DNA from: a virus
IMG/VR virus record: IMGVR_UViG_3300025106_000003
Location: 1-56,064 of that record
DNA: 56,064 bases
Reading direction: 5' to 3' (one strand)
The notes under the pieces were generated by a model. It did no database searches and was not told where the DNA came from. It saw only the letters and a program-made list of their open reading frames with translations. Positions 21,036 through 45,599 of this stretch are shown piece after piece. Position 1 is the first letter of the stretch, and the number at the start of each line of letters is the position of its first letter. The position numbers and the translations under genes are program-made.

Positions 21036-21247
21036 TTGGAACTCTACGTTCTGTCGCAAGCACCATTTCAGCGCAAGACGGGGAAACTGTAGAGGTATGC
21101 GTAATTAAAAAACCAACGACTAGAAGGGGGAAGTCTGCGACCTTCAATGTTGGGGAGACGGTAGTTATCCTAGCCCAAGAGGAGTACCATAAAATTTTAC
21201 ACAAGAAAAGATCGCCAATGCCATTTGCAAACTATGAAGAATTTTAA
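21029..21247 (+). CDS. Small hypothetical protein
   Basis: 72 residues starting inside the end of the preceding gene (7-nt overlap). It has a beta-rich core (TVEVCVIKKPTTRRGKSATFNVGETVVIL) that could be a small barrel. No family is recognised. Its last codons overlap the start region of the GDP-mannose dehydratase gene. Confidence 0.45.
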   Translation: MVIGTLRSVASTISAQDGETVEVCVIKKPTTRRGKSATFNVGETVVILAQEEYHKILHKKRSPMPFANYEEF

Positions 21248-23363
21248 AAAAGTAGTTATTACAGGAGTGACTGGTCAAGATGGAAGCTATATGGCTGACT
21301 ATCTTCTAGAGAACACAGACTGCGAAATATTCGGCGCGATCCGAAGACTCAGCGTGGACAACCATATCAACATAGAGGGAATCAAAGATAACCCGCGTTT
21401 TCATCTAATAGAAATGGATCTGTGCGACTCCGAGAGTATTGAATGTTCCGTAAGGGAGATTCAGCCAGACTACTACATCAATTTTGCCGCAAACTCGTTT
21501 GTTGGAACAAGCTGGAAACTACCAGTCAATCATTTTCAGTCCAATACAATGGCAGTCCTTCATCAACTTGAGGCAATCCGCAAGCATGCGCCACATTGTC
21601 GCTATTACAACTCTGGGAGTTCGGAGGAGTATGGAAATGTTGCATACACGCCACAAGACGAGAATCACCCCCTTAATCCAAGAAGTCCATATGGTGCCTC
21701 CAAAGCTTCCGCAAGACATATTGTGAAAGTGTGGAGAGAGTCCTATGGTTTATTTGCGATACAGGGACATCTTTTCAACCACGAATGCTTAACCGCCCAA
21801 ACTCCAGTTATATTAAAAAATAAAAATACTGGACTTATTGATATAAAGCCAATTAAAGAAATTGTTCCACATAGAACGAAACCAAATGGTACAAAAAAAT
21901 ATACATCCGTTAATGAATGTGAATATTTAGTTTGGGACGGAAATCGTTGGGAAGAAATCATTACCAGAACCGCTACTTGGAATGATCGTAAAAATGATAA
22001 AAAAGTTTTAAGAGTAATGGCTCGTGGTGGATTCTATGAGGCAACCGAAGATCATATTTCTTTTAAAAACGGCCAAATAGAAACCAAAACTAAAAGTTTA
22101 AAAATAGGAAACGAATTAGAACTAAAAAATTTGCCAGAACTAACCCAAAAATCATTAATAAGCCAAGAGGAGGCAGAATTTTTAGGGCTTATGTCTGCCG
22201 AAGGGTGGGTTTCCTCATGCGGGAAAGGCAGATTTACTAATAAGGACGAGAATCTATGTAATAAAATTAAAGACTTGTGGTCCAAATTATCCATTGGATA
22301 TACATCTGAAAACATAAGTGAAAGCGGATATACTGGTAAAAAAGATATTAAAAATATCAATCTCCTTGGAGATGCTAATTATTTAAAATCAATTAAAAAT
22401 CAATTATATACAAAATCGGAAGAAAAAAGAGTACCTCAAAAAATTCTTAATGCCGATAGAGAGACGATGCTTGCCTATCTGCGCGGTTACAATTATGGAG
22501 ATGGACTCAAGGCTGGAAATCAAAATTCTGAATTTCAAGGTTTTACAACAAATTCTTATACATTAAGCGCGGGACTCTGTTATTTACTTCATCAGCTAGA
22601 TTTTAGATTTGTACTATGCCCAGAAGAAAGGGGCGACAAGATTTATTTTAAAATAAATATAAACGTCAAAAACTCGCAAAAAGGCCACCACCTCAAAAAG
22701 AGCCTCAATGAAATAACTAAAATATCAAAACTTAATTATGAAGGCTGGCTTTTTGATTTAGAAACCACTTCTGGAACATTCTCTGCGGGTGTCGGATTTT
22801 CTTGGGTGCATAATAGCCCTCGTCGTGGAGTGGAATTTGTTACACGCAAAATCTCAATGGGGGTAGCAAGAATTAGGGAAGCTATAAGAAAAGGAGAGTC
22901 TTTTGAGCCTATTGAGGTAGGAAATCTGTATGCCAAGCGCGATTGGAGTCATGCCAAAGACTTTGTAAGAGGGATCTGGATGATGCTTAATCAGGAAACT
23001 CTCCGAAAAGAATCCGTTGCAATATGTAGCTTGAAAGAGTATGTCCTATCCTCTAATGAAACGCATACAGTAAAAGAATTTATTGAAATAGCCTTCTCAA
23101 TTGCAGGATTGAAGGGCGAATGGGTGGGTGAAGGAGTAGACGAAAGGTACATCATGCCTTGTGATACACAGCAGGGAACAATTAATTTGGTTAAAATTAA
23201 TCCAGATTTTTACAGACCAGCGGAGGTCGAGCTGTTACTTGGCGATTCCACAAAAGCGCGCACCGAACTCGGTTGGAAGCCAGACTACAATTTGGAGCAG
23301 TTGGTTAAAGAGATGGTAGACAACGACATAAAGCTGGTAAAAAACAAAGCAAATACAGATTGA
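21234..23363 (+). CDS. gmd: GDP-mannose 4,6-dehydratase interrupted by an intein
   Basis: 709 residues from ATG 21234 (an in-frame ATG at 21225 is possible), against ~350 for the enzyme alone. The extein is a short-chain dehydrogenase: TGVTGQDGSYMADYLL binds NAD(P), NSGSSEEYG carries the active-site Ser/Glu, YGASK is the catalytic Tyr-Lys, and NHE/SPRRGVEFVTRKI is the GDP-mannose site. The intein splits NHE from SPRRG. After splicing the enzyme should convert GDP-mannose to GDP-4-keto-6-deoxymannose, a precursor of fucose, rhamnose and perosamine-type sugars for the phage glycosyltransferases. Confidence 0.9.
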   Translation: MKNFKKVVITGVTGQDGSYMADYLLENTDCEIFGAIRRLSVDNHINIEGIKDNPRFHLIEMDLCDSESIECSVREIQPDYYINFAANSFVGTSWKLPVNHFQSNTMAVLHQLEAIRKHAPHCRYYNSGSSEEYGNVAYTPQDENHPLNPRSPYGASKASARHIVKVWRESYGLFAIQGHLFNHECLTAQTPVILKNKNTGLIDIKPIKEIVPHRTKPNGTKKYTSVNECEYLVWDGNRWEEIITRTATWNDRKNDKKVLRVMARGGFYEATEDHISFKNGQIETKTKSLKIGNELELKNLPELTQKSLISQEEAEFLGLMSAEGWVSSCGKGRFTNKDENLCNKIKDLWSKLSIGYTSENISESGYTGKKDIKNINLLGDANYLKSIKNQLYTKSEEKRVPQKILNADRETMLAYLRGYNYGDGLKAGNQNSEFQGFTTNSYTLSAGLCYLLHQLDFRFVLCPEERGDKIYFKININVKNSQKGHHLKKSLNEITKISKLNYEGWLFDLETTSGTFSAGVGFSWVHNSPRRGVEFVTRKISMGVARIREAIRKGESFEPIEVGNLYAKRDWSHAKDFVRGIWMMLNQETLRKESVAICSLKEYVLSSNETHTVKEFIEIAFSIAGLKGEWVGEGVDERYIMPCDTQQGTINLVKINPDFYRPAEVELLLGDSTKARTELGWKPDYNLEQLVKEMVDNDIKLVKNKANTD
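21786..22814 (+). other. LAGLIDADG intein within GDP-mannose dehydratase
   Basis: 343-residue in-frame insert (residues 185-527). It begins with Cys1 (CLTAQTPVIL), has a block-B histidine (ATEDHISF), two LAGLIDADG helices (FLGLMSAEGWV and YLRGYNYGDG), and ends FSWVHN followed by Ser+1. All splice-site residues (C1, TxxH, HN, S+1) are present, so it should splice. Both LAGLIDADG motifs look intact enough for a homing endonuclease. The DNA is more A-rich than the exteins, a sign of separate origin. Confidence 0.92.
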
Positions 23364-31009: not shown

Positions 31010-31629
31010 TACGATTTGATAAAACTAGTAAGTTTCTCTTTCTCGATTTCGAGACTGAGGGGCTTTGCCTTAACCATAGATTCAATAAGCCTTGGCAGAT
31101 GTCTCTTTTGAAGTCGGTTAACGGTCAGAAGGTAGGCTCGCAGGAGGTGTGGATTAAGTGGCCGAAATTCAAATTTTCCAAAGGCGCAAGAATGCTGGCC
31201 CATTCATTTAGTGAATCTAAAATGGAGCAAGATGGCATCTCCCCCAAGGCAGCGCTTGCAATTTTAGACAAAGCCCTGTCGGAAACAGATTACCTTATCG
31301 GCCATAACCTGCTAGGCTTCGATGTTTTCATCATCAAAGCTATGTATGAGGCTTGCGGACAAAAAATGCCCAAGCTGCCAACTATCATAGATACTTTCCC
31401 CATTGCCAAGGGGGTTATAAATAATCTGCCCTACAAGGCTGGCGAGGATTTCTATTTTTACCAATACAAGCTCATCAATGAGATCATCAAAGGCTCAAAA
31501 ACAAGCCTTTCCGCGCTCGCCAAATACTATAATATTGAAATAGACGAGGGTAGATTGCACGATGCGACATACGATTTAAGTTTAAATTTAGCTATATGGA
31601 ACAAACTCAAATTTCAAATTCAATTGTAA
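30994..31629 (+). CDS. DnaQ-like 3'-5' proofreading exonuclease
   Basis: 211 residues from ATG 30994, which has a GGAGG Shine-Dalgarno and overlaps the PHP gene by 16 nt. ExoI motif FLFLDFETEGL (D18, E20), ExoII IGHNLLGFDVFIIK (~108) and ExoIII LHDATYDLSLNL (~197) place it in the DEDD family; the HD in LHDATYD indicates DEDDh. It should proofread for the phage DnaE, and the interleaved gene order (PHP, exonuclease, polymerase) supports a complex. Confidence 0.8.
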   Translation: MQDELIRFDKTSKFLFLDFETEGLCLNHRFNKPWQMSLLKSVNGQKVGSQEVWIKWPKFKFSKGARMLAHSFSESKMEQDGISPKAALAILDKALSETDYLIGHNLLGFDVFIIKAMYEACGQKMPKLPTIIDTFPIAKGVINNLPYKAGEDFYFYQYKLINEIIKGSKTSLSALAKYYNIEIDEGRLHDATYDLSLNLAIWNKLKFQIQL

Positions 31630-33416
31630 GTTTTACGTCTAACTTTGAGAAGTTGGATCTGCCACTCTACGGGGTGCGCTGCCCAAAGATCGAAGTGGAT
31701 AAAAAGTTTCTCGATTCTATCGGTATTGATAGTTTTGAAGATAATCATGATCTTCTGCGCCAACTTTGTAATGCCAGCTTCAAACGGCATATGCCGAAGT
31801 GGAAAGAGATGGGCTACGATATTGAGGAATATAAGGCGAGAGTGCGCCGCGAGGTGGAAACACTCAACAAGCTAGGCTTTGTTGACTACATCCTAATTAT
31901 TTGGGATGTGTTTAACTTCTGCAAGAAAGAAGGAATCCCTGTCGGCCTTGGTCGAGGAAGCGCGGCATCGAGCTTGGTTCTATATCTTTTGGGGGTCACA
32001 GGTGTAGACCCTATTAAATATAAGCTGCTGTTTGAGAGATTCGTTTCTGATACACGAGCTAAAAAGACGGTTGTTGACGGTGTCACTTATTTGGACGGAA
32101 GCATGTTGGCGGATATTGATAGCGACATTTGCTACTATCGCCGCCACGAGGTTGTTAAATATCTGGACAAGAAATATCCAAACCGAACCTCCAAGATGCT
32201 TACGGTATCCACCCTCTCTGGAAAGGCTCTTATTAAAGATTGCGGAAAGATCATCGGTGAAAAAGATGAGAGCGAGATGAATAAAGTCACCTCTCTTTTC
32301 CCGTCAAAATTCGGCAAGGTCGCGGAGGTTGAAGAGGTGTACGCCAACGTACCAGAATTCACAACTTGGGCGGACGAGAATAAGCTGGTATACTCAATCG
32401 CTTGTAAATTAAAAGACCTTATTAGAAATAAGGGGGTGCATGCTTCGGGAACGCTCGTCGGCTTTAATGAGTTGACGCAGACTACTCCAGTAGAGCTTTC
32501 TGCGGACAAGGAGACTGTCTCTGGATTCACTATGGACTGGGCTACCAAGGTTAATCTTAAACTTGACTTGCTTGGCTTGAAATCAGTATCTGTCATCGCT
32601 GAGGTCGAAAGGCTTACAGGCGTAAAATACATGGAGGTGGACTTGGAAGATTACGATACAATCTACGCGCACCTACAGGATTTGAAGGCCGCAAAGGGTA
32701 TTTTCCAAATTGAGGCAGACACCAACTATAAGGTGTGCCGCGAGGTTAAACCTAAGAACCTTGACCAGCTTGCGGCTGTGGTGGCCATCGCACGTCCCGG
32801 CGCATTAGCTTTCACCAAGCAGTACGCAGACTACGCACAGACGGGGGTATTTCCAGAGAGCTTCCCACAGATCGACGAGATTCTAAAAGATACAGGCGGC
32901 GCAATTCTTTACCAAGAGAGTCTTATGGCCATTGGAAACAAGGTCTTTGGCTTGAGCCTCAACGAGTCCGAAACCCTTCGTAAGATCGTGGGCAAAAAGA
33001 AAGTCGCGGAAATGCCTAAATGGGAACAGGTCATTAGGGATAACGCCAAGAGGCTTAAACTCCCTGACGAGGTCGCTGATTTTTACTGGAAGGCTCTTGA
33101 CGAAAGCGCAAACTATTCCTTTTGTAAGTGTCTATCGCCAGAGACAATTGTACAAAAAGACAGTTTGGAATATGTGCCAATGTGCGAGGTAAAAAAAGGG
33201 GACAAAATTCTCAGCTATAACCCAGACTCCGAAATGGATGAGAGCGTGGAGGTCATTGATATAATGCACAATTCTACTGAAATGTTTGAATTTGAAATGG
33301 AGGACGGCAGGACAATAACATGCTCAATGGAGCACAAGTTCATGTGTGAGGACAAAAAAATGAGAAAAATTTCAGAAATTTTAAGGACAGGCGAGAAAAT
33401 TATGTGTATAGAATGA
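31596..33416 (+). CDS. dnaE: DNA polymerase III alpha, N-extein plus split-intein N-half
   Basis: 606 residues. Residues 1-511 are the DnaE catalytic core: GLGRGSAASSLVLYLLGVTGVDPIKYKLLFERFVS and LADIDSDICYYRRHEVVKYL carry the C-family polymerase motifs (GRGS, PDIDxD-like), followed by NKGVHASGTLVG and KLDLLGLKSVSVI. After YSFCK it switches to an intein N-half (residues 512-606) and stops. The remaining polymerase lies 0.9 kb downstream. Activity therefore needs protein trans-splicing with the product of 34315-35535. The start overlaps the exonuclease end by 34 nt. Confidence 0.9.
   Translation: MEQTQISNSIVSFTSNFEKLDLPLYGVRCPKIEVDKKFLDSIGIDSFEDNHDLLRQLCNASFKRHMPKWKEMGYDIEEYKARVRREVETLNKLGFVDYILIIWDVFNFCKKEGIPVGLGRGSAASSLVLYLLGVTGVDPIKYKLLFERFVSDTRAKKTVVDGVTYLDGSMLADIDSDICYYRRHEVVKYLDKKYPNRTSKMLTVSTLSGKALIKDCGKIIGEKDESEMNKVTSLFPSKFGKVAEVEEVYANVPEFTTWADENKLVYSIACKLKDLIRNKGVHASGTLVGFNELTQTTPVELSADKETVSGFTMDWATKVNLKLDLLGLKSVSVIAEVERLTGVKYMEVDLEDYDTIYAHLQDLKAAKGIFQIEADTNYKVCREVKPKNLDQLAAVVAIARPGALAFTKQYADYAQTGVFPESFPQIDEILKDTGGAILYQESLMAIGNKVFGLSLNESETLRKIVGKKKVAEMPKWEQVIRDNAKRLKLPDEVADFYWKALDESANYSFCKCLSPETIVQKDSLEYVPMCEVKKGDKILSYNPDSEMDESVEVIDIMHNSTEMFEFEMEDGRTITCSMEHKFMCEDKKMRKISEILRTGEKIMCIE
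33129..33413 (+). other. Split intein N-half (IntN) in DnaE
   Basis: 95 residues. It starts with Cys1 (CLSPETIVQ), has VKKGDKILSYN and a block B with ITCSMEHKF (the T-x-x-H equivalent SMEH), and ends KIMCIE at a natural stop. Size and motifs match the N-halves of naturally split phage inteins of the gp41-1 type. Confidence 0.9.
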
Positions 33417-34351
33417 GCGCATTAAAACTAGATTCTACGCGAACCATCCCAGTTTGTATGTTTGAAACATGCCTAATAGACGGCAGGACAAGAAAACAAA
33501 TATGTGATCTTTTTCCAGCACGAAATGGAGGGGCGTATTATTTAGACAAATTCTGCAATCATCTTAAATATAATCATCAGACAAGCTTGATCAGTTATTG
33601 TGAGCGCTATTTTAATTTCTCATGGCCTACATGTCCGGTTAAAAAAACAAAGCTGGGCTATTGTATTAGCGGGAAGGGCGTAAAAATATCAGAATATTCA
33701 CTGGGTAGTGTAAATAAGAAGAATTGCGCCAAATTTTCAGATGGGTGCAAAAGATTATCCGAAGAAAGAAAGGGCAGAGGGAATCCTATGTATAAAAAGA
33801 CCCTTTGGAATAAGGGTAAGAATTATGAAATACCTTCCAGACAAGGAAAACCACTTTCCGAGATGCATCGCGCAAGCTTAAAAGAGGCCAGAGCAAAAAG
33901 CCCATATAAAGCTAGACATACAACCCCACACTCGGAACAGACAAAGAAAATCTTAGCTATTCGTCAGGCTGAAAAATATGCAGCGGGGATTTTTAAGCGC
34001 AGAACAGGTATAGAAATAAAAGTCGAACAATTTCTATCAACATTAAAATTAAAAGAAAGTTATATAGAACAGCATCAGGTCAAATATTTTACATTGGATT
34101 TCGCTTTACAAAATGGCAAAGTAGGCATAGAGTGTCAGGGTTCATTCTTTCATATTGATCCAAGAGTTTATCCGAACGGTCCAATCTGTGCTGTTCAAAG
34201 GCGAAATTTTGGAAGAGATAAGGCTAAAAGGAAATATTTAGCCAAGAGAGGTTGGACGATTATAGAACTTTGGGAAACAGAAATAAACAGCGGAGAATTT
34301 AAAGAAATACTATTGTGCAAGCTATCGGAATTAAATCTGTTAGAAGACTAG
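33413..34351 (+). CDS. Free-standing Vsr-like homing endonuclease between split-intein halves
   Basis: 312 residues from ATG 33413, overlapping the stop of the IntN ORF (ATGA). The middle has NUMOD3-like DNA-binding repeats (GRGNPMYKKTLWNKGKN, RQGKPLSEMHRASLKEARAKS). The C-terminus (TLDFALQNGKVGIECQGSFFHIDP ... KRKYLAKRGWTIIELWE) resembles Vsr/EDxHD-type nucleases, with Asp, Glu-x-Gln-Gly and a final W-x-I-I-E-L-W-E strand. This is the fractured-gene layout described for split inteins, where the endonuclease lies outside the intein and spreads the whole cassette. Confidence 0.82.
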   Translation: MSALKLDSTRTIPVCMFETCLIDGRTRKQICDLFPARNGGAYYLDKFCNHLKYNHQTSLISYCERYFNFSWPTCPVKKTKLGYCISGKGVKISEYSLGSVNKKNCAKFSDGCKRLSEERKGRGNPMYKKTLWNKGKNYEIPSRQGKPLSEMHRASLKEARAKSPYKARHTTPHSEQTKKILAIRQAEKYAAGIFKRRTGIEIKVEQFLSTLKLKESYIEQHQVKYFTLDFALQNGKVGIECQGSFFHIDPRVYPNGPICAVQRRNFGRDKAKRKYLAKRGWTIIELWETEINSGEFKEILLCKLSELNLLED

Positions 34352-34428
34352 GACAACAAAACTCTATTGATTTTGAGGTCAATAGCAGATTTCATAATTT
34401 TTATGCGGAGGGCCTTGTTACCTCAAAT
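34315..34428 (+). other. Split intein C-half (IntC) in DnaE
   Basis: 38 residues ending in the block F/G pattern FHNFYAEGLVTSN before Ser+1. The penultimate residue is Ser rather than His, a known variation. The length matches the C-halves of naturally split inteins. Confidence 0.9.
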
Positions 34429-35535
34429 AGTCACGCTGTAAGCTATAGCGCGATGGCTGCACTGACCGTCTTTTACAAATTCAACTATCCAAAGGAATTC
34501 TTCTTGGCTCTGTTGAGAATGGCCAAGCATGAAAGTGACAGCCTGACAGAGATTGCTGCGATTTCACGAGACATGGGGGATTTTGGCATTGAGCTTCTTC
34601 CCCCTGATTTAAATAAGAGCGGCGAGGACTTCGAACTAGAGGGCAATAATATCCGATTTGGATTATCCGCAATCAAGGGTATCAGTACCAAGATTATGTC
34701 AAAGTTCTCTGGATTCAAAGACAAGCATGCCTCGCGCATCGACCTCTTCCTTTCCGCAAAACAGGCAGGAATCTCCATCGGAGTGCTTTCCGCCCTCATT
34801 CAAGCTGGCGCAATCGAATCACTTCACAATCGTTCTCGCAGCTACATGGTTCTTGAGGCTCAAACTTGGAATATTCTCAAGGATAGGGAGAAATTGCTCG
34901 TGAAAGACCTTATCGAATCAGGCGAGTGTAGGGATGTATTGTCGTGCATCAAAAAACTCAATGAGGAGATCAAGAACGACAAGGGCATGCCGCAAATCAA
35001 GGATAGTCGATTCTCCACGATCAAGCGAGATTACGAGAAATATAAATCCATTTATTTGATGAACAGTCGAAACGAGGATCTTGCGAATTACTTCTATGAG
35101 AAAGAACTACTTGGTCGTTCGTATAGCCAATCTCTCTCCTCTATATTCAGCAAGAAATGCGAAAAGTTGATGTCTATCAAGGAGTTCCAAGAGGAACTGA
35201 ACCCGAATGAAAAGGGTCTTATTGTGGGCGTGGTATCTGAAAAGGTTTCTAAAACCTCCTCAAAGGGCAACCCCTACATCAAATACACAATCCACGACGA
35301 GAGCGCGCAGATTGACTGTTTTATCTTCTCCACGGCACATTCCGACAAAATTGGACTGATCCGTGAGGATAACGGCGGCAAACTTCCAGAGGAAAAGGAT
35401 ATTGTTGTACTCAAGGGTATGCGAAAAGACGAGACTGCCTGCTACGTTGACAAACTTGGCATCCAAAGCTCCAAGATCTTTATGAAATTGAAGGACTTAA
35501 AGGATGCAGAGGAGACTTCAGATGAAAATAGTTGA
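34315..35535 (+). CDS. dnaE: DNA polymerase III alpha, split-intein C-half plus C-extein
   Basis: 406 residues from GTG 34315, overlapping the endonuclease end by 37 nt. Residues 1-38 are IntC, ending RFHNFYAEGLVTSN, followed by Ser+1. Residues 39-406 (SHAVSYSAMAALTVFYKFNYPKEFFLALL) continue DnaE exactly where the N-part stopped; the canonical sequence is NKSHAxAYxxxxYxTAYLKxxYPxEF. The rest contains the fingers and helix-hairpin-helix region and a C-terminal OB-fold (GLIVGVVSEKVSKTSSKGNPYIKYTIHDESAQIDCFIF). Trans-splicing would restore an alpha subunit of ~880 residues, apart from the separate PHP piece. Confidence 0.88.
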   Translation: MQAIGIKSVRRLGQQNSIDFEVNSRFHNFYAEGLVTSNSHAVSYSAMAALTVFYKFNYPKEFFLALLRMAKHESDSLTEIAAISRDMGDFGIELLPPDLNKSGEDFELEGNNIRFGLSAIKGISTKIMSKFSGFKDKHASRIDLFLSAKQAGISIGVLSALIQAGAIESLHNRSRSYMVLEAQTWNILKDREKLLVKDLIESGECRDVLSCIKKLNEEIKNDKGMPQIKDSRFSTIKRDYEKYKSIYLMNSRNEDLANYFYEKELLGRSYSQSLSSIFSKKCEKLMSIKEFQEELNPNEKGLIVGVVSEKVSKTSSKGNPYIKYTIHDESAQIDCFIFSTAHSDKIGLIREDNGGKLPEEKDIVVLKGMRKDETACYVDKLGIQSSKIFMKLKDLKDAEETSDENS

Positions 35536-37430: not shown

Positions 37431-37502
37431 GCTCCTATAGTGTAGTGGTCAGCACGGAAGATTTTCAATCTTTAAGGTGGGTTTCGATTACCCATAGGAG
37501 TG
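37431..37502 (+). tRNA. tRNA-Glu (TTC)
   Basis: Acceptor GCTCCTA/TAGGAGT, discriminator G, no CCA (CCG). Anticodon arm GAAGA-TTTTCAA-TCTTT, T-arm TGGGT-TTCGATT-ACCCA. Confidence 0.85.
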
Positions 37503-37588
37503 CCGAGGATTGGTCGCACCAATCAGATTTCAGGGGATTTCGAGGTAGCCTGAACCAGAATAACAAAAATGCTCGACCAATTTATATT

Positions 37589-37661
37589 GCAGATTAGAGT
37601 ATGGGTAACTCGGTTGGCTCATAACCAATAGCAACGGATTCAAACGCCGTATCTGCTACCA
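37589..37661 (+). tRNA. tRNA-Met (CAT)
   Basis: Acceptor GCAGAT/ATCTGC ending TACCA; D-arm GAGT...ACTC; anticodon arm GTTGG-CTCATAA-CCAAT; T-arm ACGG/CCGT. Confidence 0.8.
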
Positions 37662-37662
37662 A

Positions 37663-37831
37663 TTTAAACACTAGTTAGTAGCGGTGGTCAGTTTTTGCCT
37701 TTAGTGGAGCAAACGTCCTTAAATCGACTCTCGCCCTCGCAGAGTTCGCTACTCACCTGAGTAAATACGTCAGCCGATGAGAACTTATGATACTAGTAAA
37801 TCTAAGTGCTAAAATCTGATTGGTGTTTAAA
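37663..37831 (+). ncRNA. 169-nt structured RNA closed by a 9-bp terminal stem
   Basis: TTTAAACAC (37663-37671) pairs perfectly with GTGTTTAAA (37823-37831). Nested inside, AGTAGCG (from 37677) pairs with CGCTACT, enclosing a tRNA-sized 77-nt unit with an ACTCT/AGAGT hairpin. No ORF and no recognised family. Confidence 0.4.
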
Positions 37832-37838
37832 CCTTTAT

Positions 37839-37912
37839 GGCTCTCTAGCTTAATGTAAAGCAATCGTTTCATACGCGATTAGATTTCCGGTCGATACGGA
37901 AGAGAGCTACCA
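37839..37912 (+). tRNA. tRNA with CAT anticodon (Met or Ile2)
   Basis: Acceptor GGCTCTC/GAGAGCT, A, encoded CCA. D-arm GCTT/AAGC, anticodon arm ATCGT-TTCATAC-GCGAT, T-arm TTCCG-GTCGATA-CGGAA. CAT could be elongator Met or lysidine-modified Ile. Confidence 0.8.
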
Positions 37913-37984
37913 TTACCACATAGCAGTCCGGTAATCCCGAATAGACAATACGGTTCGGGTTTAATGTGCGTAATCACTTTTTAT

Positions 37985-38077
37985 CCTTCGGTAGTTTAAC
38001 GATAAAACCCCTCGCTTATAACGAGTTTAGCGGTAGATTTCCGCGCAATGCAGGTTTGAATCCTGCTCGAAGGACCA
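37985..38077 (+). tRNA. tRNA-Ile (TAT) with hairpin variable arm
   Basis: Acceptor CCTTCGG/TCGAAGG, A, CCA. Anticodon arm CTCG-CTTATAA-CGAG, T-arm GCAGG-TTTGAAT-CCTGC. The variable region is ~24 nt with GCGG/CCGC, abnormal for a class I tRNA. Confidence 0.7.
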
Positions 38078-38080
38078 ATT

Positions 38081-38180
38081 TAGACTGTAGTTCAGCGGTA
38101 GATCGCAACCATACTATGTGGGAAAATACTCCTAAAAAGCGTATGGCTCTGATGACACAGGTTCGAATCCTGTCAGTCTA
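38081..38180 (+). tRNA. tRNA-like gene with 26-nt anticodon loop
   Basis: Acceptor TAGACTG/CAGTCTA and T-arm ACAGG-TTCGAAT-CCTGT are perfect. The anticodon stem CCATAC/GTATGG encloses 26 nt instead of 7. The anticodon cannot be assigned; the insert looks intron-like. Confidence 0.5.
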
Positions 38181-38344
38181 ATAATTTCTAACGTTAGTTA
38201 AGTCATGGTGATAGACGAGTAAGAATAGGTCGAATTAGGAGGCATTCTATTAGACTGATAAGAAGACTCCCATATGAAGGGTTTCGACTTTCTGAATGGA
38301 ACGAATTCGTGAAATCCACTGTGCAAATTAAACGCTTACGGGAC

Positions 38345-38430
38345 CGCCAGCGTGGTCGCCCGACTTGGGATCGGGATATTCAGCAGAGGGCAGCACTCTG
38401 GTAGGCGACATAGAGTGGGTTTCCAATTTC
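38345..38430 (+). tRNA. tRNA-Pro (TGG)-like, degenerate
   Basis: A perfect anticodon arm CCCGA-CTTGGGA-TCGGG (38359-38375) follows a D-arm-like GCG-TGGT-CGC. The T-arm is weak, ~37 nt lie between, and no acceptor stem can be paired. Confidence 0.4.
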
Positions 38431-38517
38431 TCACATCTTACAAAAATTGGTGGTGGAGTCTCTACCGCGAAATCGGTACGGCCCAAGCTGGCAACTTGCT
38501 CTAAAGTTGCATATTAG

Positions 38518-38592
38518 CCCTTCGTAGGCCATGAGCGAGCCGCAACCCTTAGAAGGTTGTGTATGTAGTTGCAACCACTACCGAAGGGACCA
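38518..38592 (+). tRNA. tRNA-Leu (TAG)
   Basis: Acceptor CCCTTCG/CGAAGGG, A, CCA. Anticodon arm CAACC-CTTAGAA-GGTTG, T-arm GTAGT-TGCAACC-ACTAC. The variable region is short (5 nt), which is odd for Leu. Confidence 0.8.
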
Positions 38593-38597
38593 TTTTA

Positions 38598-38668
38598 GCC
38601 CGTTTAGCTCAATGGGAGAGCCAATAGTTGATAATTATTAGACGGTGGATCGAAACCATCAATGGGCA
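38598..38668 (+). tRNA. tRNA-Ile (GAT)
   Basis: Acceptor GCCCGTT/AATGGGC, A, no CCA. D-arm GCTC/GAGC, anticodon arm AATAG-TTGATAA-TTATT, T-arm GGTGG-ATCGAAA-CCATC. Confidence 0.85.
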
Positions 38669-38676
38669 TAGTTTAT

Positions 38677-38752
38677 GGGTGCGTGACGGGAATGCATACC
38701 TAGTTGGTCGAGAGCCAACTGCTTGTGAGGTCGAGACTCACCGCGCCCACCA
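38677..38752 (+). tRNA. tRNA-Leu (GAG)
   Basis: Acceptor GGGTGCG/CGCGCCC, A, CCA. Anticodon arm GTTGG-TCGAGAG-CCAAC, T-arm GTGAG-GTCGAGA-CTCAC. Short variable region. Confidence 0.75.
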
Positions 38753-38974
38753 AGTCTGGATGGCTACTCAGTATCAAGACGGACTTCATAAATGTCTACC
38801 AATCTGAGATCGTTTCTGAGTTTGTGATAATCATTAACTTAGCGTAACCCTATTTGCGAAAGAGGAAACACCTTAAATAGAAAACAATTTAACCTAGAAA
38901 AAACGGGTGACGAGTCCCGTAGTCGGCACTGGTCGGCTGGATGGTAAGTATCATAGTCTAAGTTATTCACCAAT

Positions 38975-39055
38975 GCGATAGTCGGATAGTGGTTCATTCC
39001 GCCTCTCTTCCAAAGAGGTTTATGGTCGTGGGTTCGAATCCCACCTGTCGCACCA
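38975..39055 (+). tRNA. tRNA-Gly (TCC), copy 1
   Basis: Acceptor GCGATAG/CTGTCGC, A, CCA. Anticodon arm CCTCT-CTTCCAA-AGAGG, T-arm GTGGG-TTCGAAT-CCCAC. Confidence 0.9.
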
Positions 39056-39059
39056 ATAT

Positions 39060-39113
39060 GCCAGTAGCAACTTGCAAGTTTATCGGCTTCATGGGCTGAT
39101 AATGCTGGCACCA
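39060..39113 (+). ncRNA. 51-nt two-arm tRNA-like gene with encoded CCA
   Basis: A perfect 7-bp acceptor GCCAGTA/TGCTGGC, discriminator A and CCA enclose only two hairpins: AACTT/AAGTT and TATCGGC-TTCATGG-GCTGATA with a 7-nt loop. There is no room for three arms. It could be a decayed tRNA or a functional minimal one; the ends look well kept. Confidence 0.45.
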
Positions 39114-39433
39114 ATTTGTGGTCATTGAGGGGAATAAATTATCGTGGGGGTTACGAACCACTATAAATAAATAAGTAATAAAAAGGTGTCTATTCAACGA
39201 CCTGAGCCACAAAAAATTTCAAAACCTAGATAAGACAACTTACCGAGCCGCTTACTCATCGGACAAAGACGTAAAGTGGTGGGTGCCACTTATCAGGTAT
39301 TAGCTATGCCTCCTGTCCGGTCGCATAGCTTGAATTAATTTCGAAGCTCCCCGCGAAGGAGTCCTAGTTCGGAAAAGCATCCTCCTTGTATGCTGTAAAA
39401 GGGTGAGAATCCCAACGGGCCAATACAATTTTT
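39114..39433 (+). ncRNA. Structured non-coding stretch between tRNA-Gly copies
   Basis: No credible gene lies in these 320 nt. Visible helices: AAGTGG/CCACTT near 39275, AGCTATG (39302) with CATAGCT (39324), CTCC-CCGCGAA-GGAG near 39350, and AGCAT/ATGCT near 39380. It carries one copy of a repeat (39203-39231) shared with 40673-40726, and ends GGGCCA like a tRNA 3' end. Confidence 0.35.
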
Positions 39434-39507
39434 GCATCATTAGTTTAGTGGTAAAACTTTTGCCTTCCAAGCAGAGTTCGTCGGTTCGATTCCGACATGA
39501 TGCTCCA
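39434..39507 (+). tRNA. tRNA-Gly (TCC), copy 2
   Basis: Acceptor GCATCAT/ATGATGC, discriminator T, CCA. D-arm GTTT/AAAAC, anticodon arm TTTGC-CTTCCAA-GCAGA, T-arm GTCGG-TTCGATT-CCGAC. Confidence 0.9.
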
Positions 39508-39527
39508 TAAAAGCGTGTGGCGCGATA

Positions 39528-39619
39528 AAGCGCGTAAAGTCGCCAGCGTGTAGGTAACATGCGGATAACTACACCAACAGACCCGCCTCTTGTGGGTTAA
39601 AATCCTATCGCGCTTACCA
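39528..39619 (+). tRNA. tRNA-like gene, anticodon not assignable
   Basis: Acceptor AAGCGCG/CGCGCTT is perfect with A and CCA. GTGTAG/CTACAC encloses a 15-nt loop where the anticodon arm should be, and the T-arm (GTGGG-TTAAAAT-CCTAT) is wobble-rich. Confidence 0.4.
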
Positions 39620-39659
39620 ATTTAAAGAACGTGGCGGAAGTCAAACGCTTTCGTTTAAG

Positions 39660-39700
39660 TCCTCTATAGCTCAGAGTAGAGCATCGGCATTGTCCGAAGG
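39660..39700 (+). pseudogene. 5' half of a tRNA
   Basis: TCCTCTA, then TA and a regular D-arm GCTC-AGAGTA-GAGC, then a partial anticodon arm TCGG/CCGA. No matching T-arm or 3' acceptor follows before the homing endonuclease gene, so it looks like a broken tRNA. Confidence 0.4.
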
Positions 39701-39786
39701 TCAGAGAAGTAACGAACTCTTAGATGCAAAGACAACGAAGACACAAAAGCTTAGTGTGAAAAGTCCAAACCTTTTCCGTTCTTTAA

Positions 39787-40272
39787 TTATTTAAGAGATT
39801 CAGATTGTTTTACAATTTGCTTACATAATAAAATAAGCTCGTCGTAAAGTAAATCTTGTTTAATTCTATTGGCTTTGTTAGAAGTTAGTCCGCAATTTTC
39901 TAGGGAGGAGTCTCCTCCGCGAGATGTAGGAATAATGTGATCTAATGAATAATCTTCTGGTTTATCTAAATCTATCAATTCCCCAGTCAAATAACATTTT
40001 GGGACAGGGCCGATTTTATTTAAAAGATCCTTTAGAGTAAACCGAATTATTTTAGGTCTGGTTTTACTTTTCGGATTGCCTCGATAGAAGTCTGACATCT
40101 TAGTAACCAATGGGTTTCTTTTGCGATAATTTTTATACGCCTGACTCATTGACTTTTTTCGGTTTGGACTAAAATGATAAATTAAAGTCCACTTAGATAT
40201 TTGAAGTTCATCGGAAATTTCCTGATAAGTTTTTCCGTTTTCTAACATTTTTATTATTTTTTCTTTGTCCAT
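39787..40272 (-). CDS. HNH homing endonuclease
   Basis: 161 residues from the second ATG (40272), which an AGTGTAAGTAT promoter-like element precedes closely. The N-terminus is a helix-turn-helix (MLENGKTYQEISDELQISKWTL). The HNH core is KCYLTGELIDLDKPEDYSLDHIIPTSRGGDSSLENCGLTSNKANRIK: DH, the central Asn and the final N/K residues are present. It lies antisense to the tRNA array beside a tRNA fragment and is probably a selfish element targeting it. Confidence 0.8.
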   Translation of the reverse strand: MDKEKIIKMLENGKTYQEISDELQISKWTLIYHFSPNRKKSMSQAYKNYRKRNPLVTKMSDFYRGNPKSKTRPKIIRFTLKDLLNKIGPVPKCYLTGELIDLDKPEDYSLDHIIPTSRGGDSSLENCGLTSNKANRIKQDLLYDELILLCKQIVKQSESLK

Positions 40273-40329
40273 ATGCAATACTTACACTTGTAAGACAGTA
40301 ATGTGAAACTTGCAATGGATATATTAAAT

Positions 40330-40405
40330 GGGGTTGTAGCATAAGAGGAAGTGCGCTTGTTTTGCAAACAAGAGTGTGTGATTTCGAGCATCATCAACTC
40401 CACCA
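40330..40405 (+). tRNA. tRNA-Ala (TGC)
   Basis: Acceptor GGGGTTG/CAACTCC, A, CCA. D-arm GCAT/GTGC, anticodon arm CTTGT-TTTGCAA-ACAAG, T-arm GTGAT-TTCGAGC-ATCAT. Confidence 0.88.
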
Positions 40406-40414
40406 TTTATTTAT

Positions 40415-40491
40415 CGCTACTGAGCAGGAACGGTGACAGGCACGAGACTGAAAATCTTGGGAACTCGGTTCGACTCCGAGAGTAGCGGCCA
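40415..40491 (+). tRNA. tRNA-Phe (GAA)
   Basis: Acceptor CGCTACT/AGTAGCG, G, CCA. Anticodon arm CGAGA-CTGAAAA-TCTTG, T-arm CTCGG-TTCGACT-CCGAG. Confidence 0.88.
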
Positions 40492-40987
40492 ATGAAAACA
40501 TGGTAGGCTCTATGCAGACCTCCGGTAAAATCCGGCGTGTTGGGTTAGTCGATAAGACCCTCCAATTTCCCGAATACCAAGGCGGGTTCCGCTGACCAGA
40601 TCCAGTGTGGTAGCTACTCAGGCGAGATAGCGATAACGAGATGCGTAAAAAGCCCTTAACGGTTGCAATCAGTGAGCCACAAAAAAGGTTAGTTATTCGG
40701 GATTTAAATTTTCACAAAACCTAGATCGGGGTATACAAACGACGAAGTTGCGCTAGTAGGTCGCTAAAATACGCTGTGCGGTAATAGGATAATGTAACGC
40801 AATACAGAAAGCTAGAAGTTAGGGGAGGCAACTCTCAGTCCTTTTAGTCCTTTGTGAAAAATTTTGAGAGCAGCATTAACTTGCTTGAAATGGGTTAAGT
40901 CCTAAACTCTCATGGTGTGCAGACCTATCCTGTAATAGTAGCAATCCTCTACGAATTCGGCTCGATAAGAGTATGGATAAATTTTAT
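40492..40987 (+). ncRNA. Structured non-coding stretch including a 135-nt stem-closed RNA
   Basis: No ORF of interest lies in these ~495 nt. TCCCGAATA (40568-40576) pairs with TATTCGGGA (40694-40702), enclosing 117 nt. Further on, AGGATA (~40785) can pair with TATCCT (~40930), and TGAGAG with CTCTCA encloses a tRNA-sized unit near 40865-40915. It contains the second copy of the 39203 repeat. It could be one large ornate RNA or several decayed tRNAs. Confidence 0.35.
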
Positions 40988-41062
40988 AGGTTAGAGTATC
41001 AACAGCATGATTACCTCTCTGTCGAAGAGGATCGAGCGGGGCAGCACCCGTCTAACCTGCCA
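40988..41062 (+). tRNA. tRNA-Asp (GTC)
   Basis: Acceptor AGGTTAG/CTAACCT, G, CCA. Anticodon arm CCTCT-CTGTCGA-AGAGG, T-stem GCGGG/CCCGT with a 6-nt loop GCAGCA that lacks the usual TTC. Confidence 0.75.
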
Positions 41063-41070
41063 ATTTAAAT

Positions 41071-41157
41071 ACATGGGTGGAGGAATGGTAAACTCAGCGG
41101 GTTGTTACCCCGCCTTTCGAAAGAAAATTGAACGTTCAAGTCGTTCTCCATGTGCCA
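41071..41157 (+). tRNA. tRNA-Asn (GTT) with 16-nt hairpin variable arm
   Basis: Acceptor ACATGGG/TCCATGT, G, CCA. Anticodon arm GCGGG-TTGTTAC-CCCGC, T-arm GAACG-TTCAAGT-CGTTC. The variable region contains CTTTCGAAAG, abnormal for a class I tRNA. Confidence 0.88.
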
Positions 41158-41162
41158 TATAA

Positions 41163-41250
41163 GCCAACGTGACCGGAATTGGTATCGGCCCGTTTTTGTA
41201 AATCGGTATGGGGAAACCCTTTGCAGGTTCGACGCCTGTCGTTGGCTCCA
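41163..41250 (+). tRNA. tRNA-Thr (TGT) with 16-nt hairpin variable arm
   Basis: Acceptor GCCAACG/CGTTGGC, T, CCA. Anticodon arm CCGTT-TTTGTAA-ATCGG, T-arm GCAGG-TTCGACG-CCTGT. The variable region contains GGGGAAACCC. Confidence 0.88.
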
Positions 41251-41259
41251 ATAATTTAT

Positions 41260-41343
41260 GCAATCGTCTGTTAGCGGCAATACAAACTGACTTTTAATCA
41301 GTCGCCCATTTGGGCTTCGAGAGTTCGAGTCTCTCCGGTTGCA
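41260..41343 (+). tRNA. tRNA-Lys (TTT) with 16-nt hairpin variable arm
   Basis: Acceptor GCAATCG/CGGTTGC, A, no CCA. Anticodon arm ACTGA-CTTTTAA-TCAGT, T-arm GAGAG-TTCGAGT-CTCTC. The variable region contains GCCCATTTGGGC. The antisense endonuclease ORF ends inside this tRNA. Confidence 0.88.
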
Positions 41344-42445
41344 AATCTTCTAAGTTAATATATTCTTTTTCATACCATAATTCAAATGAATACCCATGTT
41401 TAAGATATTCTTGACGTTTATCTATCATATTTTGGTAATCTAGGGTATATTTACTTTTCACCTCAATTATTTTATTATACGCTGGAAGATAAAAATCTGG
41501 AATTGCTACTCGATTCATCAGTTTTTGAGAATCCCAATAAACGATGCGTAATCCTTCTACCTCATAATCTATTTTTTGTTCATCAAAAATTTTGGCTAAT
41601 TCTAATTCGTAAGATGATCTATAAAAAACTCGCTTGTTGTTCCATGTAGTATGGAACCCATGCTTATATCTTAAGCAGGATGGTGGTGTTTGCCTGCCAG
41701 ATATTAGTGCGTTATTATGAGATTGAGATAAGTTTCTAAAACCTATACCAAGGCACGTTAACAATTTAGATAAATTTCCAACATTATTGTGGTTATATTT
41801 GTCGCAGATTTGTTGTAGAGATAGCTTTCGATCCCAGTAATCTTCTCGTAGCATTAGGGAAACACGATCAAATTCGCGATAAGCGTCAACGCTCCCCAGT
41901 GTGGTGAGATCAAACCCAAAGTATTTATTTAGCCCTTTAAATAATTGAGGGCTTTTACAGATTTCCTTACGCTCACATTCAGATTTCCCACAAATATTAC
42001 ATTTTCTTATTTTTGCATTATATTGTGCTGCTTTTCTCACTTTTCGTAACTTCCTACAGCCAGAACATATTTTTTTCCCCATATTTTTTGAATATAATAA
42101 TATGTCCGCGCCACATTTTATACAGTTGCTTGATATTTTTGGTGCATGCGCGTTGCTATATATGGCAGCACAGGAGCGTGAACAAAATAAGTGTTTGCTT
42201 TTTTTAACCTGACATATCGGGCGCGTAAACTTACTATCACATACCTCGCATGAATATTCTTGAGCGGTTGTTTTTCGTTTCGTATCGCAAAGTCTAGAGC
42301 ATATATCGCTTTGAGAACCGCTTATTATCGAGTGGTATATATTCTTTTTAGTTCTTTGAAATACTTTATGACAAGCATCACATTCTAAATTCAACAGCGT
42401 TTTTTGTGCAGCATTTTGGTATTCAGATTCGGTATAAAGTTTCAT
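41294..42445 (-). CDS. Zinc-finger homing endonuclease with PD-(D/E)XK-like domain
   Basis: 383 residues from the ATG at 42445 (MKLYTESEYQNAAQ), chosen because an AGTGTAATTATAC element lies just before it. The N-half holds several Cys pairs (CDAC, CEVC, CSRSC, CIKC, CSGC, CNIC) of zinc-ribbon type. The C-half (VFYRSSYELELAKIFDEQKIDYEVEGLRI ... AIPDFYLPAYNKIIEVKSKYTL) is a PD-(D/E)XK-type nuclease (PDF...EVKSK). Its last ~16 codons are read from the 3' half of tRNA-Lys on the other strand. A selfish element of the tRNA array. Confidence 0.75.
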   Translation of the reverse strand: MKLYTESEYQNAAQKTLLNLECDACHKVFQRTKKNIYHSIISGSQSDICSRLCDTKRKTTAQEYSCEVCDSKFTRPICQVKKSKHLFCSRSCAAIYSNAHAPKISSNCIKCGADILLYSKNMGKKICSGCRKLRKVRKAAQYNAKIRKCNICGKSECERKEICKSPQLFKGLNKYFGFDLTTLGSVDAYREFDRVSLMLREDYWDRKLSLQQICDKYNHNNVGNLSKLLTCLGIGFRNLSQSHNNALISGRQTPPSCLRYKHGFHTTWNNKRVFYRSSYELELAKIFDEQKIDYEVEGLRIVYWDSQKLMNRVAIPDFYLPAYNKIIEVKSKYTLDYQNMIDKRQEYLKHGYSFELWYEKEYINLEDLQPERLELSKPKWATD

Positions 42446-42600
42446 ATATGTATAATTACACTTATCAACTCCTTTTGGGAGCATCTTTCTATTACCACCG
42501 GACCCACCATTTTACGTAAAAGAAATTCCTCTTTCCATTCGGGAATAGGTGGAAAGTGATAAGGAGGGGTAAAAGTCCCAACCTTCCCACATTTTAGTAT

Positions 42601-42677
42601 GGTCTTATCATCCAACTGGCAGGATTCCCGTCCGATTAACGGGGCATGATTGGGTTCGAATCCCTCTAAGACTACCA
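42601..42677 (+). tRNA. tRNA, anticodon probably GAT (Ile)
   Basis: Acceptor GGTCTTA/TAAGACT, A, CCA. D-arm ATCC/GGAT, anticodon stem CCCGT/ACGGG around CCGATTA (C instead of T at position 33), T-loop TTCGAAT with only three good stem pairs. Identity uncertain. Confidence 0.55.
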
Positions 42678-42760
42678 TCAGTCTGCGGTAAGCGCAGACA
42701 TAAATTTTATATCAAAAAGGTGAAATTCCCGTTCGTCTGTAAAAGGCTTTGGTATATTAC

Positions 42761-42834
42761 CGCCTGCTAGTTTAAATTATAGAACAACCCCATGAAGAGG
42801 GGTAGATGTCGATTATCCACGACAAGGGCGACCA
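42761..42834 (+). tRNA. tRNA with GAA anticodon (Phe-like), degenerate acceptor
   Basis: D-arm GTTT/GAAC, anticodon arm ACCCC-ATGAAGA-GGGGT, T-stem TGTCG/CGACA, then A and CCA. Only the first four or five acceptor pairs (CGCC/GGCG) form. Confidence 0.5.
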
Positions 42835-42836
42835 TT

Positions 42837-43112
42837 TTATTCCTTGAAATGCACTTCTCTGTGGCAATTTGCGCATAGAAGATCGCACTTATTTATTTCT
42901 GCGACAATCTCTTCCTGAGAAAAGCCTTCGCCGTACATGGCAGAGGAAAGCTTAAACTTCTTCTCTTTCGGGTTCCTGTGATGAAACTCAAGGGCGTCCA
43001 GACATTTGGAGTAACCGCAAGTTTTGCATTTGCCTCCCGCAAGTAATTTAAATCGATTTTTTGCAAGCTTTCTTCGCATAGCTTTCGTCAGTGAGGGAGA
43101 TTTAATTGCCAT
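42837..43112 (-). CDS. Small HNH endonuclease
   Basis: 91 residues from the ATG at 43112. KCKTCGYSKCLDALEFHHRNPKEKKFKLS followed by EINKCDLLCANCHREVHF is a compact zinc-bound HNH nuclease: two CxxC pairs, the FHH catalytic site and a CxxCHRExH terminus. It stops 2 nt from the encoded CCA of the preceding tRNA, and a CGTGTATACTAT promoter-like element lies before its ATG, divergent from the PEP-CTERM-like gene. Confidence 0.78.
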   Translation of the reverse strand: MAIKSPSLTKAMRRKLAKNRFKLLAGGKCKTCGYSKCLDALEFHHRNPKEKKFKLSSAMYGEGFSQEEIVAEINKCDLLCANCHREVHFKE

Positions 43113-43169
43113 ATTAACAATAGTATACACGATTTAATGACAAAAGGGTGTATTTACAGGAAGAATCCC

Positions 43170-43742
43170 ATGAAATCAAAATTGTACAAACTTATCTTCG
43201 CTTTAGCGTTTTCGGTTGCGTTTTGCTGCTGCGATGAAACAGTCGCGCAGCTTCCCGCGCCGAACCAGATCGTTGTTAATACGGGCGGCACTTTATTTCT
43301 CAGCGGAATAGAAGTCATTCCAAATAACACAAATATCAAATTAAATGGAGGCGAAATAGACATCATTGGGGGCGGCACAGAAACCGTAGGAAAATTGACT
43401 CTCTCAAAAGACTCCGCAATCAACATCGACACGCTGATGAATTTTTCCCTTTATTTTAAGAATAGCTCTATGGAGAAGTGGAAGGGAAACTTAATCATAA
43501 CAGGATGGACTGGAGACGCTTACGGAGGATACACGACTAAAATATTTGTAGGCAATAACGCTAATGGATTAAATCAAAATCAGCTTAACTCAATATCGTT
43601 TGCTGGTTTTGGAAATGGCGCGATACTTCTTGGAAGCGGCGAACTGTGTCCGATTGCCGTGCCAGAACTCAATCCTTGGACTGGAGCGGTGGCGATCTTC
43701 CTGCTGATAGTGGCTATTGAATGCCGCATGAAAAAAAGATAA
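43170..43742 (+). CDS. PEP-CTERM-like secreted/surface protein of verrucomicrobial type
   Basis: 190 residues from ATG 43170. An N-terminal signal peptide (KLYKLIFALAFSVAFCC) leads into a beta-strand repeat region (LNGGEIDIIGGGTETVGKLTL). WKGNLIITGWTGDAYGGYTTKIFVGNNANGLNQNQLNSISFAGFGNGAILLGSGEL matches the end module of verrucomicrobial autotransporter-associated/PEP-CTERM proteins. The C-terminus (VPELNPWTGAVAIFLLIVAIECRMKKR) is PEP-like motif, membrane helix and basic tail, with PEL instead of PEP. It is probably host-derived and exported to the cell surface. Its place among tRNAs makes it an accessory (moron) gene. Function unknown. Confidence 0.7.
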   Translation: MKSKLYKLIFALAFSVAFCCCDETVAQLPAPNQIVVNTGGTLFLSGIEVIPNNTNIKLNGGEIDIIGGGTETVGKLTLSKDSAINIDTLMNFSLYFKNSSMEKWKGNLIITGWTGDAYGGYTTKIFVGNNANGLNQNQLNSISFAGFGNGAILLGSGELCPIAVPELNPWTGAVAIFLLIVAIECRMKKR

Positions 43743-43887
43743 TTTCCCTATAGCTAGGGGTTACGGGTGCGGAATAATTAAATAGTTCGCACCTAGAGCA
43801 GATAGATAGACAATTGGATAGGTTCGATTCCTTAACGCTGGTGCGCTCTTATTGTTGAGAACGTCCGTGAAATCCTGCTAATTTTTT
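43743..43887 (+). other. Gap with hairpins and a stray T-arm
   Basis: After the PEP-CTERM-like gene come a CCCTA-TAGC-TAGGG hairpin without a T-run, a GGTGCG/CGCACC helix with a 16-nt loop (~43776-43803), and a T-loop-like GG-TTCGATT-CC near 43820. No complete tRNA can be folded. Confidence 0.3.
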
Positions 43888-44028
43888 GATCCGTGGAGAA
43901 TGGGAAACTCACTAGCGATAGCAATGAATAATACAGCAAAAGAAGTTGGCTCATAATCGACCGTTCTGTTAGTTAATGTCTATAAGTCTTGAAACATGCT
44001 AGAGGTCTGGTTCGAATCCAGCGGATCT
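43888..44028 (+). tRNA. 141-nt tRNA-like gene with an ~80-nt insert at the anticodon
   Basis: Acceptor GATCCGT/GCGGATC is perfect; there are a D-arm GAG/CTC and a T-arm CTGG-TTCGAAT-CCAG. The anticodon stem CTAGC/GCTAG encloses ~80 nt instead of 7. That insert contains a second anticodon-like arm GTTGG-CTCATAA-TCGAC with a CAT triplet. It may be an interrupted tRNA or a nested one. Confidence 0.45.
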
Positions 44029-44104
44029 ATTTTATGGAGCGATAGTTTAAATGAAGAACACTGCAATAATGCAGAGGTGTGTGATCGTAATCCGCAAACT
44101 CCTC

Positions 44105-44182
44105 CATTCTGTCGAAGATGGCGTTTAAATCGCCACTGTAGCGCAAAGAGACAGTTAGCTCAACCCTAGAGCATCGACGCAA
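44105..44182 (+). ncRNA. tRNA-like element with arms in unusual order
   Basis: An anticodon-like hairpin TGGCG-TTTAAAT-CGCCA (TAA triplet) comes first, then CTGT/ACAG, then a D-arm-like TTA-GCTC-AACCCTA-GAGC. TGTCGA near the start can pair with TCGACG at the end. No TTCGAAT T-arm is present. Confidence 0.3.
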
Positions 44183-44192
44183 TTTTTTATAT

Positions 44193-44269
44193 GGTGTACG
44201 AATCCGAAGTGACCGAGGAAATGGACTGTGAATCCATTCATTAGCGAGTTTAAGTCTCGTCGTATACCC
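44193..44269 (+). tRNA. tRNA-His (GTG)
   Basis: Acceptor GGTGTAC/GTATACC, discriminator C as in tRNA-His, no CCA. Anticodon arm ATGGA-CTGTGAA-TCCAT, T-arm GCGAG-TTTAAGT-CTCGT. Confidence 0.85.
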
Positions 44270-44274
44270 CAAAT

Positions 44275-44349
44275 TGCGATGTCGGCAACAGTAGTCACTC
44301 TCACTCTGAATGAGAAAAAGTCTTGGGGCGGAACCAAGCATCGCAGCCA
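44275..44349 (+). tRNA. tRNA-Gln (CTG)
   Basis: Acceptor TGCGATG/CATCGCA, G, CCA. Anticodon arm TCTCA-CTCTGAA-TGAGA, T-stem CTTGG/CCAAG with a non-standard loop GGCGGAA. Confidence 0.82.
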
Positions 44350-44356
44350 TTTTTAT

Positions 44357-44427
44357 TCCCTTGTAGTGTAAAGGTAGCACACGGCTCTTTGAAAGCCTGA
44401 GTTTCGGTTCAAATCCTGACAAGGGAG
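44357..44427 (+). tRNA. tRNA-Gln (TTG)
   Basis: Acceptor TCCCTTG/CAAGGGA, G, no CCA. D-arm GTGT/GCAC, anticodon arm GGCT-CTTTGAA-AGCC, T-loop TTCAAAT. Confidence 0.85.
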
Positions 44428-44440
44428 CGTATTGGTTTTT

Positions 44441-44517
44441 GGGAATTTAGCTTAAATTGGCAGAGCAAGAAACTCTTAATTTCTAAGGTGTCGGATCATT
44501 GCCGACAGTTCCCACCA
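44441..44517 (+). tRNA. tRNA-Lys (CTT)
   Basis: Acceptor GGGAATT/AGTTCCC, A, CCA. D-arm GCTT/GAGC, anticodon arm AGAAA-CTCTTAA-TTTCT, T-arm GTCGG-ATCATTG-CCGAC. Confidence 0.88.
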
Positions 44518-44596
44518 TTTACCATACAAGCTCCTAGATTAAAATAGTGTAAAATCGTGGGGCGGCTGTCACTATAAAGCCAGTGTGGGAATTTAT

Positions 44597-44692
44597 ACGG
44601 ATGGGGCTATGGTAGCCGAGAACTCTCCAAAGGTTCTGTGCTTAATCGGAAGAAGCGGCGTCGATAGGGTTCGATTCCCTACATCCGTGCCA
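44597..44692 (+). tRNA. tRNA-Trp (CCA) with very long variable arm
   Basis: Acceptor ACGGATG/CATCCGT, G, CCA. D-arm GGCT/AGCC, anticodon arm GAACT-CTCCAAA-GGTTC, T-arm TAGGG-TTCGATT-CCCTA. The variable region of ~27 nt includes GCTT/AAGC. Confidence 0.8.
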
Positions 44693-44720
44693 TTTCGCGA
44701 CAAAATGTAACAAAACTTCC

Positions 44721-44750
44721 TTGGCTCAAACCAATTATTTAGTGTAATAT
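44721..44750 (+). promoter_or_regulatory. Promoter placed for a leaderless transcript
   Basis: TTGGCT (44721-44726), 18-bp spacer, TAATAT (44745-44750) within AGTGTAATAT; the ATG at 44756 is 5 nt further. Confidence 0.55.
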
Positions 44751-44755
44751 CCGTC

Positions 44756-45597: not shown

Positions 45598-45599
45598 TT

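Follow-up and report, generated by a model that had tools for sequence, protein, structure and literature searches.

How an intein came to sit in a sugar-nucleotide enzyme gene of a phage, and whether it can still splice and move, is the question raised by this locus. The window (the whole stretch analyzed, a 56,064-bp IMG/VR viral record) contains a single uninterrupted open reading frame that starts at 21225 (TTG) or 21234 (ATG), ends at 23363, and encodes GDP-mannose 4,6-dehydratase (GMD) with a 343-amino-acid insert. The family model PF16363 (GDP_Man_Dehyd) matched both extein sides (E value = 2e-96), and LAGLIDADG_3 matched between the two GMD halves (E value = 5e-7), bearing out the initial annotation, which had placed a full-length LAGLIDADG intein between NHE and SPRRG. 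The coordinates that it gave, 21786 to 22814, are exact to the base, because the intein begins with TGC (Cys) at 21786-21788 and ends with AAT (Asn) at 22812-22814, after which comes AGC (Ser +1). The features of the locus are as follows.

21234..21785, + strand: N-extein, the N-terminal half of GMD, ending in LFNHE, with the GxxGQDG, SSEEYG, and YxxxK motifs; aligns to residues 3-187 of E. coli GMD (1db3)
21786..22814, + strand: full-length intein of 343 amino acids, from C1 to the final HN, with a LAGLIDADG endonuclease domain
21786..21788, + strand: Cys1, present in all 37 aligned inteins
22044..22055, + strand: block B, T87-x-x-H90, both T and H being shared by all 37
22179..22205, + strand: first LAGLIDADG motif, FLGLMSAEG, with acid E139 (D or E in 34 of 37)
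22479..22505, + strand: second LAGLIDADG motif, LRGYNYGDG, with acid D239 (D in 33 of 37)
22746..22814, + strand: blocks F and G, WLFDLETTSGTFSAGVGFSWVHN, with D324, penultimate H342, and terminal N343
22815..23363, + strand: C-extein, the C-terminal half of GMD and the stop codon, beginning S(+1)PRRG

Two further matches fell under their cut-offs: intein_Nterm (TIGR01445) inside the insert (0.018) and TIGR01472 for the GMD (score of 299.8 against a cut-off of 415), the latter as may be expected because the insert splits the match. The base composition of the intein is foreign to the window: its G+C content is 0.334, whereas the exteins and the window both lie near 0.43, and of all stretches of intein size in the window only 0.1% reach this AT content, every one of them overlapping the insert. 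We rejected misassembly, artefact, and chance as explanations, since other assemblies and datasets show this arrangement as well, with the intein at the identical site in two other viral contigs (L003 and L004) and in dozens of cellular genomes.

Next, we looked at the residues on which splicing, DNA cutting, and dehydratase activity would depend, using an alignment of 37 intein homologues for the conservation counts. Besides Cys1 and the two block B residues, D324 and N343 were invariant; the penultimate residue was H in 32 inteins, A in 3, and S in 2. Among 48 complete inteins (5 of them viral), 43 end in HN and all have Ser at +1; the window intein has H342 and N343 followed by S+1. In block F, a Thr-Phe-Ser (TFS) stretch replaces the His that many inteins have there. 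The window intein retains both acids of the endonuclease, E139 and D239; within the alignment the acids were lost in L093 and L101 (both), in L107 (the second), and in the mini-intein L084. The last of these is a 246-amino-acid insert at the gmd site of an Anaerolineae genome (L084:3373-4110, − strand) without most of the endonuclease domain, and L093 and L101 are Planctomycetota inteins at the same gmd site; judging from their sequences, the three are stages of endonuclease decay. On the host side, the GMD catalytic residues were invariant (S129, S130, and E131; Y153 and K157; N182, H183, and E184), and by its family and catalytic motifs (SSE, YxxxK, and NHE) the host protein is classed as GDP-mannose 4,6-dehydratase. 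The intein thus appears to be complete and self-splicing, and its endonuclease, of the two-motif LAGLIDADG type by its motifs, is predicted to have homing activity. We infer splicing and DNA cutting by the window intein from sequence, and the GMD would presumably be active only after splicing. It is a fair inference that glycan-precursor supply would depend on splicing, because the insert splits a motif that is highly conserved across 27 aligned GMDs.

Structure prediction agreed with this reading of the insert. The AlphaFold model of the intein (pLDDT = 93.4, pTM = 0.93) aligned over 311 to 317 residues in VIA-align with 2cw7 (Z = 29.2) and with 7qss/7qsu (Z = 27.5); the best Foldseek match was 7qsu (E value = 5e-20), and the A4 profile also matched 7qsu (E value = 3e-17). 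Model residues 1-343 gave Z scores of 12 to 29 against full-length inteins and mini-inteins, and the window intein as modeled has the HINT fold. When the complete precursor was modeled (pLDDT = 84.8, pTM = 0.53), both parts were folded, and the sole segments of at least 3 residues with pLDDT below 50 lay at the two junctions (180-184 and 528-534). The inteins TliVMA (7qss/7qsu), PhoVMA (7qst), and PI-PkoII (2cw7) share the fold over nearly the full length (Z of 24 to 29) and, like the window intein, combine a HINT domain with a two-motif LAGLIDADG endonuclease, but they come from archaeal hosts and other genes and are 18 to 19% identical to it. Phage-borne LAGLIDADG inteins in helicase, terminase, and other genes, for example those of a Staphylococcus phage helicase and of the terminase of Corynebacterium phage P1201, are only weakly similar (about 30% over part of the length); these have replication or packaging proteins as hosts, whereas the host here is a sugar-nucleotide enzyme. 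A related intein (28% identity) was also seen in an uncultured 484-kb phage, LR756508 (L001:2902-4767), where it precedes TDSVFYP, a DNA polymerase B motif; its in-frame N-extein is very short, and it is perhaps part of a fractured polB.

We then considered how widely gmd inteins occur. The GMD-intein precursor was absent from 50,697 phage records, a 25-kb part of the window had no megablast match among phage records, and an intein-only query of viral contigs for close relatives gave none either. A full-protein query and a junction pattern each recovered viral relatives that the intein-only query had missed. The viral-contig search yielded 50 GMD loci, and in two of them, L003 and L004, an intein occupies the NHE/SPRRG site; these two come from two IMG/VR datasets, are identical over the stretch compared, and have an intein 65% identical to that of the window. 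The junction pattern added L055, L059, and L062/L065, giving intein alleles in four viral-contig lineages besides the window; among isolated phages of the collection searched, none had such an allele. L055 and L059 are taken as viral on the strength of their IMG/VR listing and a few genes. The GMD of L065 has a second intein in its catalytic SSE motif (L065:2708-3832, NAG|C...SGN|SSEEYGN), making a precursor of 1113 amino acids. The L055 contig, whose GMD intein is divergent, also has a ThyX-like thymidylate synthase gene with a likely intein (L055:4467-6461, − strand).

In genome contigs, a similar pattern gave 61 matches, 57 of which had a GMD N-terminal half immediately upstream and an intein junction; L066, L076, L095, and L126 were excluded as chance pattern matches, and L090 and L108 look like one contig in two bins. 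Because the pattern is strict, these counts are lower bounds. The hosts, many of them metagenome bins, include bacteria (Cyanobacteria, Chloroflexota, Actinomycetota, Planctomycetota, Myxococcota, Pseudomonadota, and Patescibacteria) and archaea (Woesearchaeota, Pacearchaeota, and Thermoplasmata). A profile search of 291 genomes of one phylum found full-length members in 6, each in GMD at the NHE/SPRRG site, with an E value gap from 1e-147 to 2e-15 separating the family from other matches. Two Thermosynechococcus genomes (L103 and L114) have the intein at the exact site, that of L103 being 44% identical to the window's. A type II intein in Thermosynechococcus gmd was published in 2022 (PMC9403480); that intein, from strains TA-1/CL-1, is like the window's in being full length and in the same host gene, but there the gene is cyanobacterial and chromosomal, and the passage describing it mentions neither insertion site nor tree nor phage allele, while here a diverged intein subclade is found on a phage contig. 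Open-licence literature on inteins and GDP-mannose or gmd gave no other relevant precedent. The initial annotation had treated this enzyme family as not known to carry inteins, which holds for the phage records searched and fails for cells, and its suggestion that the host gene was novel falls with the many cellular GMD inteins at this very site. The host gene and site are known; what is new is mainly the carriage of the gmd intein by phages and the traces of its jumping.

These traces come in part from a comparison of trees. In the intein tree, the window grouped with L003 (support of 100/99), then with L065 (100/97), with L106 from Falkowbacteria (99/92), and with L059 (97/97). In the GMD tree, well-supported branches with empty alleles lay between the window, L003, and L065; the sister of L003 was L029 and that of L065 was L042, both of them empty, and the GMDs of L106 and L059 were of bacterial type; some deep forks were weakly supported in both trees. 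The histories of intein and host gene therefore disagree, since a single clade unites the inteins of three phages (the window, L003, and L065) whose GMDs are interspersed with empty ones. Five label changes were needed for the five intein-bearing viral GMDs, all of them forced by starred branches. These phylogenies indicate that the gmd intein is mobile between lineages. Between the window and L003, the inteins were 65% and the exteins about 60% identical, and with divergences so similar, there is no need to assume a recent transfer between the two.

Further traces lie in the residues next to the insertion site. In a 27-row phage GMD clade, Gly follows NHE in 23 of the 24 empty alleles (L045 has Ser-Glu), and SP is present in 3/3 occupied alleles (window, L003, and L065) versus 0/24 empty ones (P value of about 3e-4, shared ancestry ignored). 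SPRRG is kept in some empty alleles elsewhere, namely, in a second phage GMD clade (L008-L015) and in two Synechococcus phages. Moreover, compared with eight near relatives, the L003 extein showed a local drop in identity, to 0.71 versus 0.87 among the relatives over codons −19 to 0 and to 0.71 versus 0.85 over codons −9 to +10; away from the junction, other bins deviated downward by at most 0.06. The trough was seen for L003 alone, the empty relatives of the window being at most about 67% identical and too diverged to reveal such a tract directly. Binned identity did not support the window or L065 lineage as donor of the L003 flank, and the donor was not found. The junction-centered trough and the SP pattern fit homing in which the flank, +1 Ser included, was co-converted. 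Splicing needs C, S, or T at +1, and by this established chemistry Gly there would be incompatible with it (PMC2814812). In haloarchaeal mcm, empty alleles have Pro at +1, and co-conversion of the +1 residue has been proposed (PMC10643990), so that such co-conversion is not new in kind. There, as in phage gmd, the empties are splice incompatible and invasion coincides with a change to Ser, but the gene and domain of life differ, and the mcm case has experimental support while ours comes from comparison alone (PMC10643990).

Taken together, we are confident that this is a class-1-type full-length LAGLIDADG intein whose precursor would self-splice and whose endonuclease would home into empty gmd with co-conversion of the flanks. 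Most likely, a precursor of about 709 amino acids would yield a 366-amino-acid GMD and a free 343-amino-acid intein through Cys1/Ser+1/Asn343 chemistry. The freed intein would keep its endonuclease activity and would cut empty gmd alleles in co-infection or on contact between phage and host DNA, and repair of the break would copy the intein and part of its flanks, among them the SP codons as the source of the +1 Ser. Vertical inheritance in a phage GMD lineage with many losses, the occupied alleles being relics, would also yield one clade of window, L003, and L065 inteins whose GMDs lie within one broad GMD clade, and recombination with an empty allele as the route of loss could mimic part of the contrary evidence. 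We nevertheless consider this history improbable: precise loss would leave SPRRG, yet Gly prevails at +1 in the empty alleles; the nearest kin of L003 are empty and differ from it just at the junction; and the intein clade also holds L106 and L059 with their bacterial-type GMDs.

Two other readings concern function and seem less probable still. The absent block F His would suit an intein that had lost splicing and left the phage GMD dead, but the core splicing residues and GMD catalytic motifs are intact, the frame is unbroken, and conservation extends across distant alleles, whereas decay is the expected fate of a dead insert, all of which makes this loss very unlikely. There is similarly little to recommend the idea that the intein has been domesticated as a regulated switch, with conditional splicing timing GDP-sugar supply in infection: the site does split a conserved motif adjoining the active site, and the junction residues are the least confident in the precursor model, but an intact endonuclease and a mobile distribution fit a selfish element better. 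Under the favored reading, self-splicing with homing, a bolder extension can be entertained tentatively: in the phage GMD clade, Gly at +1 may mark a splice-incompatible, resistant allele that the intein could enter only through homing repair co-converting the flank to SP, and phages would then be vehicles for the gmd intein between bacterial lineages.

The GMD gene lies between nucleotide-metabolism genes (ribonucleotide reductase and dCMP deaminase) on one side and replication genes (UvsX-like recombinase, DnaB-like helicase, and primase) on the other, and the window has several glycosyltransferase-like genes; given these neighbors and glycosyltransferase-like genes, a role of the GMD in glycan supply is plausible. 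Elsewhere in the window, DNA polymerase III alpha is apparently fractured (31596-35535): a polymerase part ending in an N-intein (31596-33416; CLSPETIV..., PF14890 weak) is followed by a possible MTES_1575/Vsr-like endonuclease (33404-34351, weak match) and by a frame that starts with a C-intein (34315-35535; ...GLVTSN|SHAVSYS). The arrangement resembles a split intein whose halves flank a free-standing homing endonuclease. The window also has a tmRNA gene (45180-45600; RF00023, 79 bits) and about 22 tRNA genes (37431-49848).

These results add phages to the range of a gmd intein otherwise seen in bacteria and archaea and indicate that inteins in phages also reach beyond replication and nucleotide genes. 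In addition, occupied and empty phage alleles that are close relatives and yet differ at +1 offer a direct test of whether an intein is able to invade a splice-incompatible allele and of how long a flank it carries along.
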